From: Abyssalbus ytuae
Lineage (GTDB): Bacteria; Bacteroidota; Bacteroidia; Flavobacteriales; Flavobacteriaceae
Direction: 5' to 3'
Length of the DNA stretch: 64,000 bases
Assembly (NCBI RefSeq): GCF_022807975.1
Contig: NZ_CP094358.1
Coordinates: 992,001-1,056,000 of the forward strand
Part shown: positions 6,668 through 49,200 of the stretch, one piece after another
Position numbering within the stretch: position 1 is the stretch's first letter
Layout: every line of letters starts with the position of its first letter
Translations under genes and position numbers: made by a program
Notes under the pieces: model-generated
The model's database searches: none
What the model was told of the DNA's origin: nothing
The model's input: only the letters and a program-made list of their open reading frames with translations

Positions 6668-6877
6668 GCTGTTTCCCGGAGTTTTCTGCTTACCTGGAAC
6701 TCAGGAAGGCCGGCGCGCGCAGTTTTCTGCCAACATGGCACTCCAAATTAGCTGTTTCCTGAAGTTTTCTGCTTACCTGGAACTCAGGAAGGCCGGCGCA
6801 CACAGTTTTCTGCCAACCTGACACTCCAAATTAGCTGTTTCCCGGAGTTTTCTGCTTACCTGGAACTCAGGAAGGCT
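6668..6877. repeat. GC-rich tandem repeat with an 83-bp period, 2.5 copies
   Basis: Units begin with gctgttt(c/t)cc(c/t)g at 6668, 6751 and 6834, exactly 83 bp apart. The third is cut after about 44 bp. Each unit is itself made of two related halves that share gttttctgc. The period is not a multiple of three, so translation is not the reason for its conservation. Base composition is clearly richer in G+C than the neighbouring genes. No inverted-repeat transposon end or encoded protein is seen. Confidence 0.75.
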
Positions 6878-6901
6878 GCCGACAAAAGTTTTCACCTTTT
6901 C

Positions 6902-7041
6902 CCGCCAAAATGAACTTGTTCGGGCTGGCCCGCCAGAATGACTTTGTCGGGCTGGTCCGCCAGAATGAACTTGTTCGGGCTGGCCCGCCAGAATGACTTT
7001 GTCGGGCTGGTCCGCCAGAATGACTTTGTCGGGCGGGCCCA
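6902..7041. repeat. Tandem array of 27/28-bp GC-rich repeats
   Basis: Five adjoining units of the form ccgccagaatga(a)cttgt(t)cgggctgg follow one another, alternating 28-bp (tgaacttgttc) and 27-bp (tgactttgtc) versions. A further single copy lies at about 6588-6618, on the far side of the 83-bp repeats. There are no spacers, so this is not a CRISPR array. It ends about 100 bp before the start of the lipoprotein gene at 7142. Confidence 0.75.
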
Positions 7042-13339: not shown

Positions 13340-13343
13340 CAAG

Positions 13344-13417
13344 TGACCGCGGAAGGATTCGAACCCTCAACCCTCAGAGCCGAAATCTGATATTCTATCC
13401 AGTTGAACTACGCGGCC
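13344..13417 (-). tRNA. tRNA-Arg (anticodon TCG)
   Basis: The 74-base minus-strand sequence folds into a complete cloverleaf. It has a 7-bp acceptor stem ggccgcg/cgcggtc, a D arm gttc/gaat, an anticodon stem tcaga/tctga around tttcggc (anticodon TCG), a T arm gaggg/ccttc with ttcgaat, and discriminator A. CCA is not encoded. Its 5' end overlaps the last codons of a GIY-YIG gene (stop codon at 13395). There is no room for its own upstream promoter unless it lies inside that gene, so the tRNA is probably processed from a longer transcript. Confidence 0.95.
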
Positions 13418-13655
13418 TTTCTATATTGTTTTTTCTCCATCTTCTCCCTGCTGCACTTTTCAAATATTTTTCTCTCTTCCTTGCTTCTTCTATGGTTTCA
13501 AACACCTCCTGGTAACATACAACCCATGGAAGAAAAGCTTTGGTCGATTTTACTGTTCCTGAATTATGCTGTCTCAGCCTCTCTTTTACATCTTGAGACA
13601 TCCCTACATAAAACCGGGCAAATTTATGGCTATAAATAATATAAACAAAATGCAT
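13395..13655 (-). CDS. GIY-YIG nuclease family protein, copy 1 of 3
   Basis: The 86-residue protein is a single GIY-YIG domain: VYI (4-6) and YVG (16-18), the catalytic-type R26 in KERLRQHN, and the EEARKREKYLKSAAGRRWRK segment with the metal-binding Glu. This is the short, stand-alone URI/UvrC-like form common in Bacteroidetes. The last codons (ERPRSSTG then stop) are read from the 5' end of the intact tRNA-Arg. The ATG lies about 2 bases beyond the end of a partial tRNA-Arg copy, whose sequence stops in the anticodon loop. It may serve as a homing or recombination nuclease for this tRNA site, which is inference. Confidence 0.85.
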   Translation of the reverse strand: MHFVYIIYSHKFARFYVGMSQDVKERLRQHNSGTVKSTKAFLPWVVCYQEVFETIEEARKREKYLKSAAGRRWRKNNIERPRSSTG

Positions 13656-13656
13656 C

Positions 13657-13754
13657 CCGAAATCTGATATTCCCTGCCCGAACTTACCGTTAGGTAAGGG
13701 TGGGTATCCAGTTGAACCCGCCTGAATGTATTCAGTCGGGCAAGCTACGCGGCC
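13657..13754 (-). pseudogene. Disrupted tRNA-Arg 5' half, copy 1
   Basis: It is identical to the tRNA-Arg 5' half from the acceptor strand to the anticodon loop, but is split by two inserts. One of 28 bp (13718-13745) follows position 9-10 and contains the palindrome gaatgtattc. One of 32 bp (13673-13704) lies between the D loop and the anticodon stem and contains cttaccgttaggtaag. The inserts also share tgcccga/tcgggca, so they can pair with each other. Confidence 0.75.
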
Positions 13755-13992
13755 TTTCTATATTGTTTTTTCTCCATCTTCTCCCTGCTGCACTTTTCAA
13801 ATATTTTTCTCTCTTCCTTGCTTCTTCTATGGTTTCAAACACCTCCTGGTAACATACAACCCATGGAAGAAAAGCTTTGGTCGATTTTACTGTTCCTGAA
13901 TTATGCTGTCTCAGCCTCTCTTTTACATCTTGAGACATCCCTACATAAAACCGGGCAAATTTATGGCTATAAATAATATAAACAAAATGCAT
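13732..13992 (-). CDS. GIY-YIG nuclease family protein, copy 2 of 3
   Basis: It is identical in protein sequence to copy 1 except for the C-terminal residues (PRSLPD instead of PRSSTG), because its 3' end runs into a disrupted tRNA half rather than the intact tRNA. The same motif set is present (VYI, YVG, R26, EARKREKYLKS). It starts just after the anticodon-loop end of the next tRNA half. The lack of divergence points to recent duplication or continuing gene conversion. Confidence 0.85.
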   Translation of the reverse strand: MHFVYIIYSHKFARFYVGMSQDVKERLRQHNSGTVKSTKAFLPWVVCYQEVFETIEEARKREKYLKSAAGRRWRKNNIERPRSLPD

Positions 13993-13993
13993 C

Positions 13994-14091
13994 CCGAAAT
14001 CTGATATTCCCTGCCCGAACTTACCGTTAGGTAAGGGTGGGTATCCAGTTGAACCCGCCTGAATGTATTCAGTCGGGCAAGCTACGCGGCC
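13994..14091 (-). pseudogene. Disrupted tRNA-Arg 5' half, copy 2
   Basis: It is the same as the copy at 13657-13754, shifted by 337 bp, with both palindromic inserts at the same positions (28 bp at 14055-14082 and 32 bp at 14010-14041). Confidence 0.75.
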
Positions 14092-14329
14092 TTTCTATAT
14101 TGTTTTTTCTCCATCTTCTCCCTGCTGCACTTTTCAAATATTTTTCTCTCTTCCTTGCTTCTTCTATGGTTTCAAACACCTCCTGGTAACATACAACCCA
14201 TGGAAGAAAAGCTTTGGTCGATTTTACTGTTCCTGAATTATGCTGTCTCAGCCTCTCTTTTACATCTTGAGACATCCCTACATAAAACCGGGCAAATTTA
14301 TGGCTATAAATAATATAAACAAAATGCAT
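14069..14329 (-). CDS. GIY-YIG nuclease family protein, copy 3 of 3
   Basis: Its protein is identical to copy 2. It is the first of the three in transcription order (minus strand). It is preceded by the third disrupted tRNA half and then by sequence leading from the yqeY gene. If the array is transcribed from the promoter that once served the tRNA, this copy is promoter-proximal and the intact tRNA is the last product of the transcript. Confidence 0.85.
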   Translation of the reverse strand: MHFVYIIYSHKFARFYVGMSQDVKERLRQHNSGTVKSTKAFLPWVVCYQEVFETIEEARKREKYLKSAAGRRWRKNNIERPRSLPD

Positions 14330-14330
14330 C

Positions 14331-14428
14331 CCGAAATCTGATATTCCCTGCCCGAACTTACCGTTAGGTAGGGGTGGGTATCCAGTTGAACCCGCCTGAA
14401 TGTATTCAGTCGGGCAAGCTACGCGGCC
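14331..14428 (-). pseudogene. Disrupted tRNA-Arg 5' half, copy 3
   Basis: It is the outermost copy. It carries one base change in the hairpin insert (ggtagggg for ggtaaggg). Beyond its acceptor end (14428) the flank differs from the other copies (tgtttttgttatag), so this is probably the position of the original tRNA promoter side. Confidence 0.75.
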
Positions 14429-14444
14429 TGTTTTTGTTATAGTT

Positions 14445-14882
14445 TTAAGCCAGTTTTGCTTTTACAATATTAGAAATAGTTTTACCATCTGCTTTACCGG
14501 CGAGTTGCTTTGAGACTATTCCCATATCCTTCATACTATCTGCATTAGTTTGCGAAATTACTTCTGTAACAACTTTTTCAATTTCCTCTTCAGATAATTG
14601 TTCCGGTAAAAATTTTTCAATTACTGCTACCTGTGCCAGTTCCGGTTCGGCCAAATCAGCCCTTCCCTGTTCTGTATATATAGCAGCACTCTCTTTGCGT
14701 TGCTTTACCAATTTTTGTAAAAGTTTTATTTCCTCTTCTTCTGAAAGTTCATCTTTTGCACCGGCTTCGGTTTTAGCCAACAAAATTCCGGACTTGATTG
14801 CTCTTAAAGCCTCTAAAGCAACGGAATCTTTTGCTTTCATAGCGGCTTTCATTCCTTCCATTATTTTTGATTGCAAACTCAT
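14445..14882 (-). CDS. GatB/YqeY domain-containing protein
   Basis: The 145-residue protein matches YqeY along its length. It has an N-terminal helical part (MKAAMKAKDSVALEALRAIKS), the KLVKQRKESAAIYTEQGRADL stretch and the C-terminal PEQLSEEEIEKVV plus MGIVSKQLAGKADGKTISNI. The fold resembles the tRNA-binding tail of the GatB amidotransferase subunit and may bind tRNA or assist tRNA-linked amidation. The role is not established. It follows ftsZ on the same strand with a 109-bp gap and closes the division cluster, as is usual in flavobacteria. Confidence 0.92.
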   Translation of the reverse strand: MSLQSKIMEGMKAAMKAKDSVALEALRAIKSGILLAKTEAGAKDELSEEEEIKLLQKLVKQRKESAAIYTEQGRADLAEPELAQVAVIEKFLPEQLSEEEIEKVVTEVISQTNADSMKDMGIVSKQLAGKADGKTISNIVKAKLA

Positions 14883-46250: not shown

Positions 46251-49200
46251 TTATCTTTTAATAACTACAAATCCTTCTGTTCTTCTTTCCCGTTCACCAT
46301 CCTTAAAGCGGATTATAAAAAAGTATGTTCCCTCTGGAAGATCTCCTGCCCCCAACGATCCTTTTCTGTTGGCAGTACCGTTAAAAACAACCGAAGTATT
46401 ATTATATCCTTGTGCTTCATAAATGAGATCTCCCCACCTGTTAAAAACCTGAACCCTATTGTTCGGATAATTTTCTATTCCGTTTATTTTCCAAAATTCA
46501 TTGATGCCATCATTATCCGGGGAGAAGCCATATTTCTTTTTATTTAGTAAAGGCAATTCAACCACCACTGTAATATCATCGGAGGTGGCACAACCATTTT
46601 CTGAAAAGAATGTGACTGTATAAACCGTTGTTTCCTCAGGACTTGCAACAGGATTAGCTATAAGAGGATTGGACAAGCCAGTTGCAGGTTGCCATTCAAA
46701 TCTGCCATTAACATTTATAAATGCTTCTAATTGAACTTCCTCCCCTGCTTGAATTGTAACATCACTCCCGGCATTAATATGCGGCAGGGTTTCTTGTTCT
46801 ATTGTGAATGTGCATTCATCTACATTCCCGCTAATATCCGTAGCAGTTAAAGTGATGGTCATTCCGGCGGTGAAAGCACTCCCTGCTGCAGGGTTTTGTG
46901 TGATTACCGGGTTCGGGTCCGTATCGTCCGTAGCGGTTACCATACCCATATAATCCGGGATAGTGACCGTTCCGCAAGGCAGTTCCTGGTCGGCTATACA
47001 GCTTATTGTTGGGTCAGTGGTATCGGCTGCCTGGTTTACTGTAAAAGTACACGGCCTTGCATTACCGGAAGCATCCGTTGCGGTGATTGTTACTGTCATA
47101 CCATTGGTAAAAGCACTGCCTGCCAAAGGGCTTTGGGTAACTACTGGCGATGCATCACAATTATCTGTCACACTTACCATAGAAGTATAATCCGGTAAAA
47201 CTGATCCGGCCGACAAGGTTTGGTCTGCCAGACAGGTGAAATCGGGTTGCTGGGTGTCTGCCGTCTGATTGATGATAAACGTACAGGGAATACTCTCATT
47301 ACCACTGGTATCCGTAGCAGTTAAAGTGATAGTCATTCCGGCGGTGAAAGCACTCCCTGCTGCAGGGTTTTGTGTGATTACCGGGTTCGGGTCCGTATCG
47401 TCCGTAGCGGTTACCATACCCGTATAATCCGGGATGGTGACCGTTCCGCAAGGCAGTTCCTGGTCGGCTATACAGCTTATTGTCGGGGTAGTAGTGTCGG
47501 CTGCCTGATTTACTATAAAAGTGCACGGCCTTGCATTACCGGAAGCATCCGTTGCTATGATGGTTACACTCATGCCATCGGTAAAAGCACTTCCGGCCAC
47601 AGGGCTTTGGGTAACTACTGGCGATGCATCACAATTATCTGTCACACTTACCATAGAGGTATAATCCGGTAAAACTGATCCGGCCGACAAGGTTTGGTCT
47701 GCCAGACAGGTGAAATCGGGTTGCTGGGTGTCTGCCGTCTGATTGATGATAAACGTACAGGGAATACTCTCATTACCACTGGTATCCGTAGCAGTTAAAG
47801 TGATAGTCATTCCGGCGGTGAAAGCACTCCCTGCTGCAGGGTTTTGTATGATTACCGGGTTCGGGTCCGTATCGTCCGTAGCGGTTACCATACCCGTATA
47901 ATCCGGGATGGTGACCGTTCCGCAAGGCAGTTCCTGGTCGGCTATACAGCTTATTGTCGGGGTAGTAGTGTCGGCTGCCTGATTTACTATAAAAGTGCAC
48001 GGCCTTGCATTACCGGAAGCATCCGTTGCTGTGATGGTTACACTCATGCCATCGGTAAAAGCACTTCCGGCCACAGGGCTTTGGGTAACTACTGGCGATG
48101 CATCACAATTATCTGTCACACTTACCATAGAAGTATAATCCGGTAAAACTGATCCGGCCGACAAGGTTTGGTCTGCCAGACAGGTGAAATCGGGTTGCTG
48201 GGTGTCTGCCGTCTGATTGATGATAAACGTACAGGGAATACTCTCATTACCACTGGCATCGGTAGCAGTTAAAGTGATGGTCATTCCGGCGGTGAAAGCA
48301 CTCCCTGCTGCAGGGTTTTGTGTGATTACCGGGTTCGGGTCCGTATCGTCCGTAGCGGTTACCATACCCGTATAATCCGGGATAGTGACCGTTCCGCAAG
48401 GCAGTTCCTGGTCGGCTATACAGCTTATTGTCGGGGTAGTGGTGTCGGCTGCAGGCAATGTGGTTATATTATTTAAATGATAAATAATCCCCTGGTTTCC
48501 TGCTGCATCTTCTAAAAACAGATAGACATCATAAGTAGTATCGGATGCTAATGAAGTAATGACTTCCTGAATATCTGTATTGGCTGTATTCATTAAAAAA
48601 TTGTCAGATAGTACTGCTCCTGTTCCATTTAAAATTTCATCATGAATGGGTGACCCGGAAAAGTTTCCCGGATAAACAGCATAGTGTATGGTACCGGTTT
48701 CAGGGCCGTTTACTACTAAGGTAAAGCCTGTGGTAGTTTCATTTATAGCCTGAGGGTAGCCTGTATTTAAAGGCATAGCATAATGATCGCCTCCAAAAAT
48801 AACATAAGCTTCTCCTGTTCTTTCAGTAGAACCAACCGGAGTTTCTCCGGGGCTGCCTACAATAAAATCAGATATTCCATCCCCGTTAAAATCACCCCCT
48901 CCACTAGCAGGCCTGCCAATATTGGATGTCCTGAAACCGGGAATTATAAACCCGTTTGTTCCATCAAGAGTAGTTTCATTAATGGGATCAGGAAATCCTG
49001 TAGTACTACCAAATATTACAAAAGCTACGGCTTCTAATCCAAGAGAAGCATAAACAGAAATAAAATCGTTTATCCCGTCTTGGTTGATATCTCCTATAGA
49101 AGCAGAGGTTAGTCCACCTGGTAAAATAAATCCGTATGTTCCATCTTCTACGCTACTAAGAGGAATGTGTGAAGGAAAAGGGTCTGAAACTTCCTTACCA

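Follow-up and report, generated by a model that had tools for sequence, protein, structure and literature searches.

The window analysed here, a 64,000-nucleotide stretch of the Abyssalbus ytuae genome, contains three almost identical genes for a small GIY-YIG protein, each interleaved with a piece of a tRNA-Arg gene. What is such a unit, and why is it in contact with a tRNA gene? In our reading it is probably a selfish nuclease cassette of a free-standing, homing-like kind that specialises in tRNA genes.

Organisation of the array

On the minus strand, a YqeY-like gene (14882-14445) is followed by three 337-bp units (14428-13418) and then by an intact tRNA-Arg(tcg) gene (13417-13343). The features are as follows.

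13343-13417, minus strand: intact tRNA-Arg(tcg), the host gene that closes the array (ARAGORN; Rfam tRNA, 61.6 bits)
13395-13655, minus strand: GIY-YIG gene of unit 1, 86 aa, with its last codons formed by the tRNA acceptor and D-arm
13657-13754, minus strand: remnant 1, tRNA-Arg positions 1-38 split by two palindromes
13673-13704, minus strand: 32-nt palindrome after tRNA position 22, remnant 1
14010-14041 and 14347-14378: equivalents of the 32-nt palindrome in the other remnants
13718-13744, minus strand: palindrome of about 27 nt after tRNA position ~10, remnant 1
14055-14081 and 14392-14418: equivalents of the ~27-nt palindrome in the other remnants
13732-13992, minus strand: GIY-YIG gene of unit 2; its 83 N-terminal residues are the same as in unit 1
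13994-14091, minus strand: remnant 2, placed by the 337-bp period
14069-14329, minus strand: GIY-YIG gene of unit 3
14331-14428, minus strand: remnant 3, the farthest from the intact tRNA, with one base that differs from remnants 1 and 2
14428/14429: border of remnant 3 with native upstream DNA
14445-14882, minus strand: YqeY-like (GatB/YqeY) gene, the conserved upstream neighbour, named by sequence resemblance rather than a family search

Tandem Repeats Finder gives a period of 337, 3.0 copies and 99% matches at 13408-14429. The units proper (13418-14428) occupy 1011 bp, exactly 3 x 337, and the array aligned with itself has 1 mismatch in 685 aligned bases, in agreement with the initial annotation of three nearly unchanged units. 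Each unit consists of a damaged 5' copy of tRNA-Arg (positions 1-38, with two palindromes) followed by the 86-codon GIY-YIG gene, which is the only gene between the remnants. The start codon is 1-2 bases past tRNA position 38 of the remnant, where the same annotation had put it (about 2 bases after the end of the anticodon loop). The tRNA-Arg 5' half copies that it described are present as positions 1-38, but they are not clean halves: each carries a palindromic insert of about 27 nt after tRNA position ~10 and another of 32 nt after position 22. Its proposal that each frame ends in the acceptor end of the next tRNA copy holds only in part, as the frame adjoining the intact tRNA (unit 1) reads across the acceptor strand and terminates in the D-loop (tRNA 21-23), while those of units 2 and 3 stop within the first palindrome of the next remnant. 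Missing from it was the intact tRNA-Arg(tcg) gene that closes the array at 13343-13417.

The triple repeat is unlikely to be an assembly artefact, another point on which the initial annotation had left room for doubt, because the source genome is assembled as a single 4.365-Mb contig, the units differ from one another by a base, and 28 of the 97 tRNA-associated loci in our first survey (below) have more than one GIY-YIG domain, with many tandem arrays. The number of copies may nevertheless not be exact.

Two other repeat regions occur in the window. Tandem arrays of 83-bp and 27-bp units (CCCGCCAGAATGACTTTGTCGGGCTGG) at 6668-7040 are similar to the remnant palindromes, and a 474-bp tandem repeat (3.4 copies, 97% matches) is found at 46835-48452.

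The GIY-YIG protein

The 86-aa protein matches PF01541 (GIY-YIG) over residues 1-73 with E=1.8e-16 and 60.6 bits, the cutoff being 22.6. This match settles the predicted fold, and by membership in the GIY-YIG superfamily the protein is a predicted nuclease. Residues Y5, Y16, G18, R26, H30 and E62 are invariant in both of our GIY-YIG alignments, and the invariant Y, R and E residues are presumably those of the GIY-YIG active site. The closest solved structures by sequence, from a PDB profile search, are the small UPF0213 GIY-YIG proteins 1YWL (E=1e-7) and 1ZG2 (E=1e-5). Across all same-site pairs the dN/dS of the GIY-YIG gene is 0.06-0.49, from which the protein is judged to be under purifying selection.

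Association with tRNA genes

The survey covered several hundred genomes. Searching 60 relatives with the window protein alone gave 30 analysable Flavobacteriales loci, 11 of which adjoin a tRNA or tmRNA gene. A profile made from genes of this kind, A1, has a match in 190 of 249 sampled Flavobacteriaceae genomes, often several per genome; 86 of 103 further loci found with it adjoin a tRNA or tmRNA, and a matching partial copy is present at 65 of those 86. Because A1 was built mostly from tRNA-associated members, the association test was redone with proteins of a single clade of those members. The resulting close alignment, A2, was searched across 84,980 species and the best 80 loci were taken on protein sequence alone, about 15 of them being loci that are also in the family sample.

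An intact tRNA lies within 120 bp of the gene in 76 of these best 80 loci. In three of the remaining four the tRNA is within 250 bp, and a contig end truncates the fourth. A partial tRNA copy is found within 250 bp of the gene in 60 of the 76, and nearly all of the best 80 loci have just one tRNA per ~4 kb. A sister clade of small GIY-YIG proteins, from the same genomes and handled identically, has 0 of 13 members near a tRNA. The adjacency to tRNA is far from chance, and is a family trait rather than a local oddity. The initial annotation had proposed a check for tRNA halves beside related genes, and had taken the unit for a minimal selfish element, a nuclease combined with a duplicate of part of its target, that amplifies in tandem; the enrichment is clear, and together with the many arrays it supports that core proposal.

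Members of the best 80 include Candidatus Scalindua and another Planctomycetes bin (both at tRNA-Val gac), a Lloydbacteria bin (tRNA-Asn) and Cytophagales, so that the cassettes range over Bacteroidota and a few other phyla, including Planctomycetes and CPR bacteria. At 20 loci with no tRNA, Rfam identified no rRNA or other RNA as a target.

Some individual loci should be mentioned here. The source genome has a second element of the same kind at 536719-536949 (L004/L057), before tRNA-Pro(ggg), whose remnant contains the palindrome TCCCGCCAAGGCGGGA. It also has a gene at G000:C1:885033 (L005) which, with its clade, forms a distinct small GIY-YIG family showing no tRNA association, and which serves as an internal control. 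Locus L136 (G172:C34) is an array of eight GIY-YIG genes with a period of ~365 bp, and the 2.5 kb upstream of it contain no tRNA.

Two layouts

The cassettes are set directly against an intact tRNA gene and occur in two mirror-image layouts, at no fewer than 12 tRNA species. In the 5' type, a damaged tRNA 5' part is followed by the GIY-YIG gene and then the intact tRNA; the targets are Arg tcg and acg, Pro ggg and tgg, Ala, Met, Asp, Asn, Val gac and Gln. In the 3' type, the intact tRNA comes first, the gene begins 30-60 bp further on, and the damaged 3' part follows, often with the tRNA's own terminator. Here the targets are Val tac, Arg tct, Arg tcg, Pro tgg, Met, Phe, Ser and Leu, with His less clear. 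The size of the unit is similar across genera.

With the inserts set aside, the aligned remnants share 97% identity with the intact tRNA beside them, and nearly all remnants contain a palindrome. In most Ala, Arg-tcg and Met remnants it follows tRNA position 22, and in others it follows positions 5-11; elsewhere it stands in place of the anticodon arm (Val, Pro ggg) or the T arm (Pro tgg). Of 95 inserts of at least 14 nt, 56 fold more than 2 SD more stably than shuffled sequences, the rest including alignment leftovers. In several relatives the GIY-YIG frame ends 3-9 bp short of the tRNA.

These comparisons alter three further points of the initial annotation. The halves do not look like plain target duplications, since each has an inserted or arm-replacing palindrome. 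A need for the interlocking of frame and tRNA in function is not supported, given the relatives whose frames end before the tRNA. Cleavage at the anticodon loop is not favoured either, as positions vary between families and the insert is in the D-arm in most remnants.

The 3'-type remnants are a likely source of tRNA annotation errors: at L015, L116, L129 and L144, ARAGORN calls false tRNA-SeC or stop tRNAs from them. At L250, L148 and L197, extra copies of the tRNA 3' end lie further downstream, as if integrase-type elements shared the site. A separate GIY-YIG clade lies 190-420 bp downstream of tmRNA (L024/L147, L141, L152, L155, L161), where the search used detected no duplicated part of the tmRNA.

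Sharing and dispersal of the palindromes

Remnants of different genera have palindromes at the same tRNA position with different sequences. One 32-nt palindrome is identical in the Scalindua-bin remnant and in Flavobacteriia remnants, and both orientations are used. Around a dozen dispersed palindromes of the form CCCGCCCGWAC...GTWCGGGCGGG are found in the source genome (L041-L055, for example at 855724, 3322448 and 4137428), often within a longer repeat resembling GTTCATTTTGTCTTGATACAAAATGAACCAA; none of the twelve copies is near a tRNA. Genome G161 has 21 dispersed copies, and 231 of 249 genomes have no palindrome of this type. The Arg/Ala/Met clade is overrepresented among genomes that have dispersed copies (9/16 vs 33/233; p=2e-4 by Fisher test, phylogeny being ignored). 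An exact scan of viral contigs did not find the palindrome.

The palindrome may spoil the target in the remnant or mark the end of the cassette. Alternatively, it may block recombination between the repeats, or it may be a recognition element. This last role gains some weight from the sharing between Scalindua and Flavobacteriia, the use of both orientations and the enrichment for the Arg/Ala/Met clade.

Target specificity, empty sites and horizontal movement

Mapping the target labels onto a nuclease tree with 133 members takes 28 changes, or 27 when only the first 72 residues are used, which leaves out the tRNA-encoded C-terminus. With shuffled labels (n=50) the mean is 75.7 changes and the minimum 69, although near-copies in the tree add to any clustering by target. 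Judged from these trees, the nuclease clades follow their target tRNA.

The site between YqeY and tRNA-Arg was compared in 28 genomes, of which 25 are empty and 3 are occupied, including the window. Occupancy differs even between congeners with identical tRNAs (G094 empty, G271 occupied) or nearly identical ones (G237 empty, G018 occupied). For four same-site pairs (L213/L247, L098/L257, L204/L207, L070/L235), the GIY-YIG gene has a pS of 0.23-0.34, compared to 0.76-0.80 for the upstream gene. Several elements are thus synonymously much younger than the neighbouring gene, which argues for horizontal movement. For L160/L165 and L201/L208 the GIY-YIG divergence is like that of the neighbours, fitting long residence.

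The remnants and element borders provide further detail. The first 22 nt of the G271 remnant have 4 differences from its own tRNA and from that of its congener, and are identical to the tRNA-Arg of another genus (G013). Loci L074 and L211 have one element in common, before Arg(acg) and Arg(tcg) respectively, and their similarity stops inside the shared 5' arm of the tRNA. Overall, the sequence comparisons indicate gain by horizontal transfer at fixed sites, with selection on the protein. Protein searches of phages (with a hand-entered consensus as query), plasmids and viral contigs gave no relative of this clade.

Proposed mechanism and alternatives

Site polymorphism, a lineage tied to its site and horizontal spread, three of the marks of a free-standing homing gene, are all found here. 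We suggest that the GIY-YIG nuclease makes a break or nick in its target tRNA gene where no cassette is present, and that repair from an element-bearing molecule would then copy the cassette into the broken site. The flanking tRNA pieces would act as portable homology arms, because the tRNA is the only DNA conserved right at the sites between genera. Insertion beside the tRNA with duplication of part of it would leave an intact tRNA gene; as the tRNA stays whole, the cost to the host would be low and an intron unnecessary. The tandem arrays could arise when breaks lead to unequal recombination between the repeated pieces of tRNA.

Some observations fit this scheme less easily. The protein, at ~86 aa, has no separate DNA-binding domain, which counts against a homing-like reading. 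The negative searches of phages, plasmids and viral contigs, and the pairs L160/L165 and L201/L208 with their neighbour-like divergence, weigh against it as well. Also, classical homing needs the target in the occupied allele to be spared. The intact tRNA of the window is the same as the empty-site tRNA of G021 bar one terminal base, and the occupied allele therefore still holds the presumed target: the remnant is disrupted by a palindrome, and the intact tRNA keeps the naive sequence. Recoding of the window tRNA as self-protection is ruled out by the same comparison, the single difference being at the 3' end. Cutting of the donor may be weak, or recognition may need a particular context or structure. 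Weak cutting of the donor is described for other free-standing GIY-YIG enzymes in PMC13096335.

The simplest alternative, an ordinary stand-alone GIY-YIG gene lying beside a tRNA by chance and tandemly duplicated by replication slippage, is hardly credible. Tandem duplication does not require a nuclease, and the PDB profile search gives only UPF0213 proteins of no stated mobility, but coincidence sits badly with tRNA adjacency in 76 of the best 80 homologues, partial copies, two mirrored arrangements, clades specific to their targets, empty sites and low pS. tRNA genes are classic attachment sites, and the array could in principle be what is left of an integrase-borne element, with the GIY-YIG gene as passenger; the partial tRNA 3' copies further downstream at some loci (L250, L148) would agree with this. 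However, no integrase lies between the repeats of the window, the 86-aa gene being alone within the repeat-bounded unit. Since the tRNA piece is the 5' part in many families, and the unit size is similar across genera, we consider such an origin very improbable. A host role acquired by domestication, such as that of a regulator or a repair nuclease with a tRNA-like mRNA leader, would account for the purifying selection and for the tRNA-like remnant upstream of the gene in the 5' types. In the 3' types, however, the remnant comes after the gene, and the patchy presence even within genera and the low pS relative to neighbours make a host function improbable.

A last alternative gives the palindromes the leading part. 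Small GIY-YIG proteins would read tRNA genes and remnant palindromes as DNA hairpins, each clade matched to a tRNA arm, and would move the cassette, and perhaps free palindromes, via single strands, as a counterpart of REP/RAYT. The presence of a palindrome in nearly every remnant, at the same tRNA position across genera in spite of different sequence, agrees with such a transposition, and the identical 32-nt palindrome in Scalindua and flavobacterial remnants, in both orientations, and the enrichment noted above point the same way. Yet the palindrome is not found elsewhere in most element-bearing genomes, other families have unrelated hairpins, the correlation between clade and dispersed copies ignores phylogeny, and GIY-YIG enzymes are not known to form the covalent intermediates of HUH transposases. 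Both the hairpin-directed movement and the wider REP/RAYT-like role are for these reasons rather unlikely.

The homing-like cassettes are probably a widespread variant of free-standing homing nucleases, with tRNA genes as their particular targets, that has apparently not been described before. No description of such cassettes in Bacteroidota was found in the literature searched, which consisted mostly of open-access journal papers. If this reading holds, tRNA genes in bacterial chromosomes are widely targeted by minimal homing elements, and this has for the most part escaped notice. The system would then offer a ready panel of natural putative nucleases with matching tRNA genes, and a clean way to test how a parasite can live at an essential gene without an intron. 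The cassettes may also account for annotated tandem small GIY-YIG genes and pseudo-tRNA calls.

Comparison with known systems

The likeness to REP/RAYT is that palindromes are also scattered through the genome that has the element (some twelve more in the source genome and 21 in G161, with none of this type in 231 of 249 genomes). The difference is that the HUH/Y1 transposase beside the palindromes is absent here, the only gene being GIY-YIG.

Group I introns with GIY-YIG endonucleases occur in bacterial tRNA genes, according to the abstract of PMC3984707, and are likewise mobile nuclease-encoding elements that occupy tRNA genes. Compared with the introns as presented there, our cassettes have no intron or split exon: the tRNA is contiguous and part of it is duplicated. 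At the window locus Rfam gives no intron match, and up to E=1 reports only tRNA and one weak sRNA match. A group I intron with a homing endonuclease is therefore ruled out.

A precedent is SegB of phage T6, a GIY-YIG enzyme with cleavage sites inside tRNA genes. Its locus undergoes amplification, probably via short homology between the tRNA-Tyr 5' region and the segB 3' region (PMC13096335). SegB of T-even phages resembles our elements in being a free-standing GIY-YIG gene beside tRNA genes with tandem amplification. It differs in being phage-borne, and the description consulted does not include a truncated tRNA remnant with a palindrome (PMC13096335). The elements described here are in bacterial chromosomes, encode proteins of ~80-90 aa in clades matched to their tRNA targets, and have two mirror-image layouts.

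The closest architecture is that of the mobile endonuclease ORFs of fungal mitochondria, which carry a duplicated C-terminus of the host gene at atp6, atp9, cox2 and nad3 (PMC3630166, which cites Allomyces). There too, an intact hybrid gene end lies on one side of the ORF and a displaced native copy of that end on the other, so that the host gene survives (PMC3630166). The fungal hosts are mitochondrial protein genes, the imported end is clearly diverged, and no palindrome is described in the duplicate (PMC3630166), whereas here the hosts are bacterial tRNA genes and the duplicate is near-identical.
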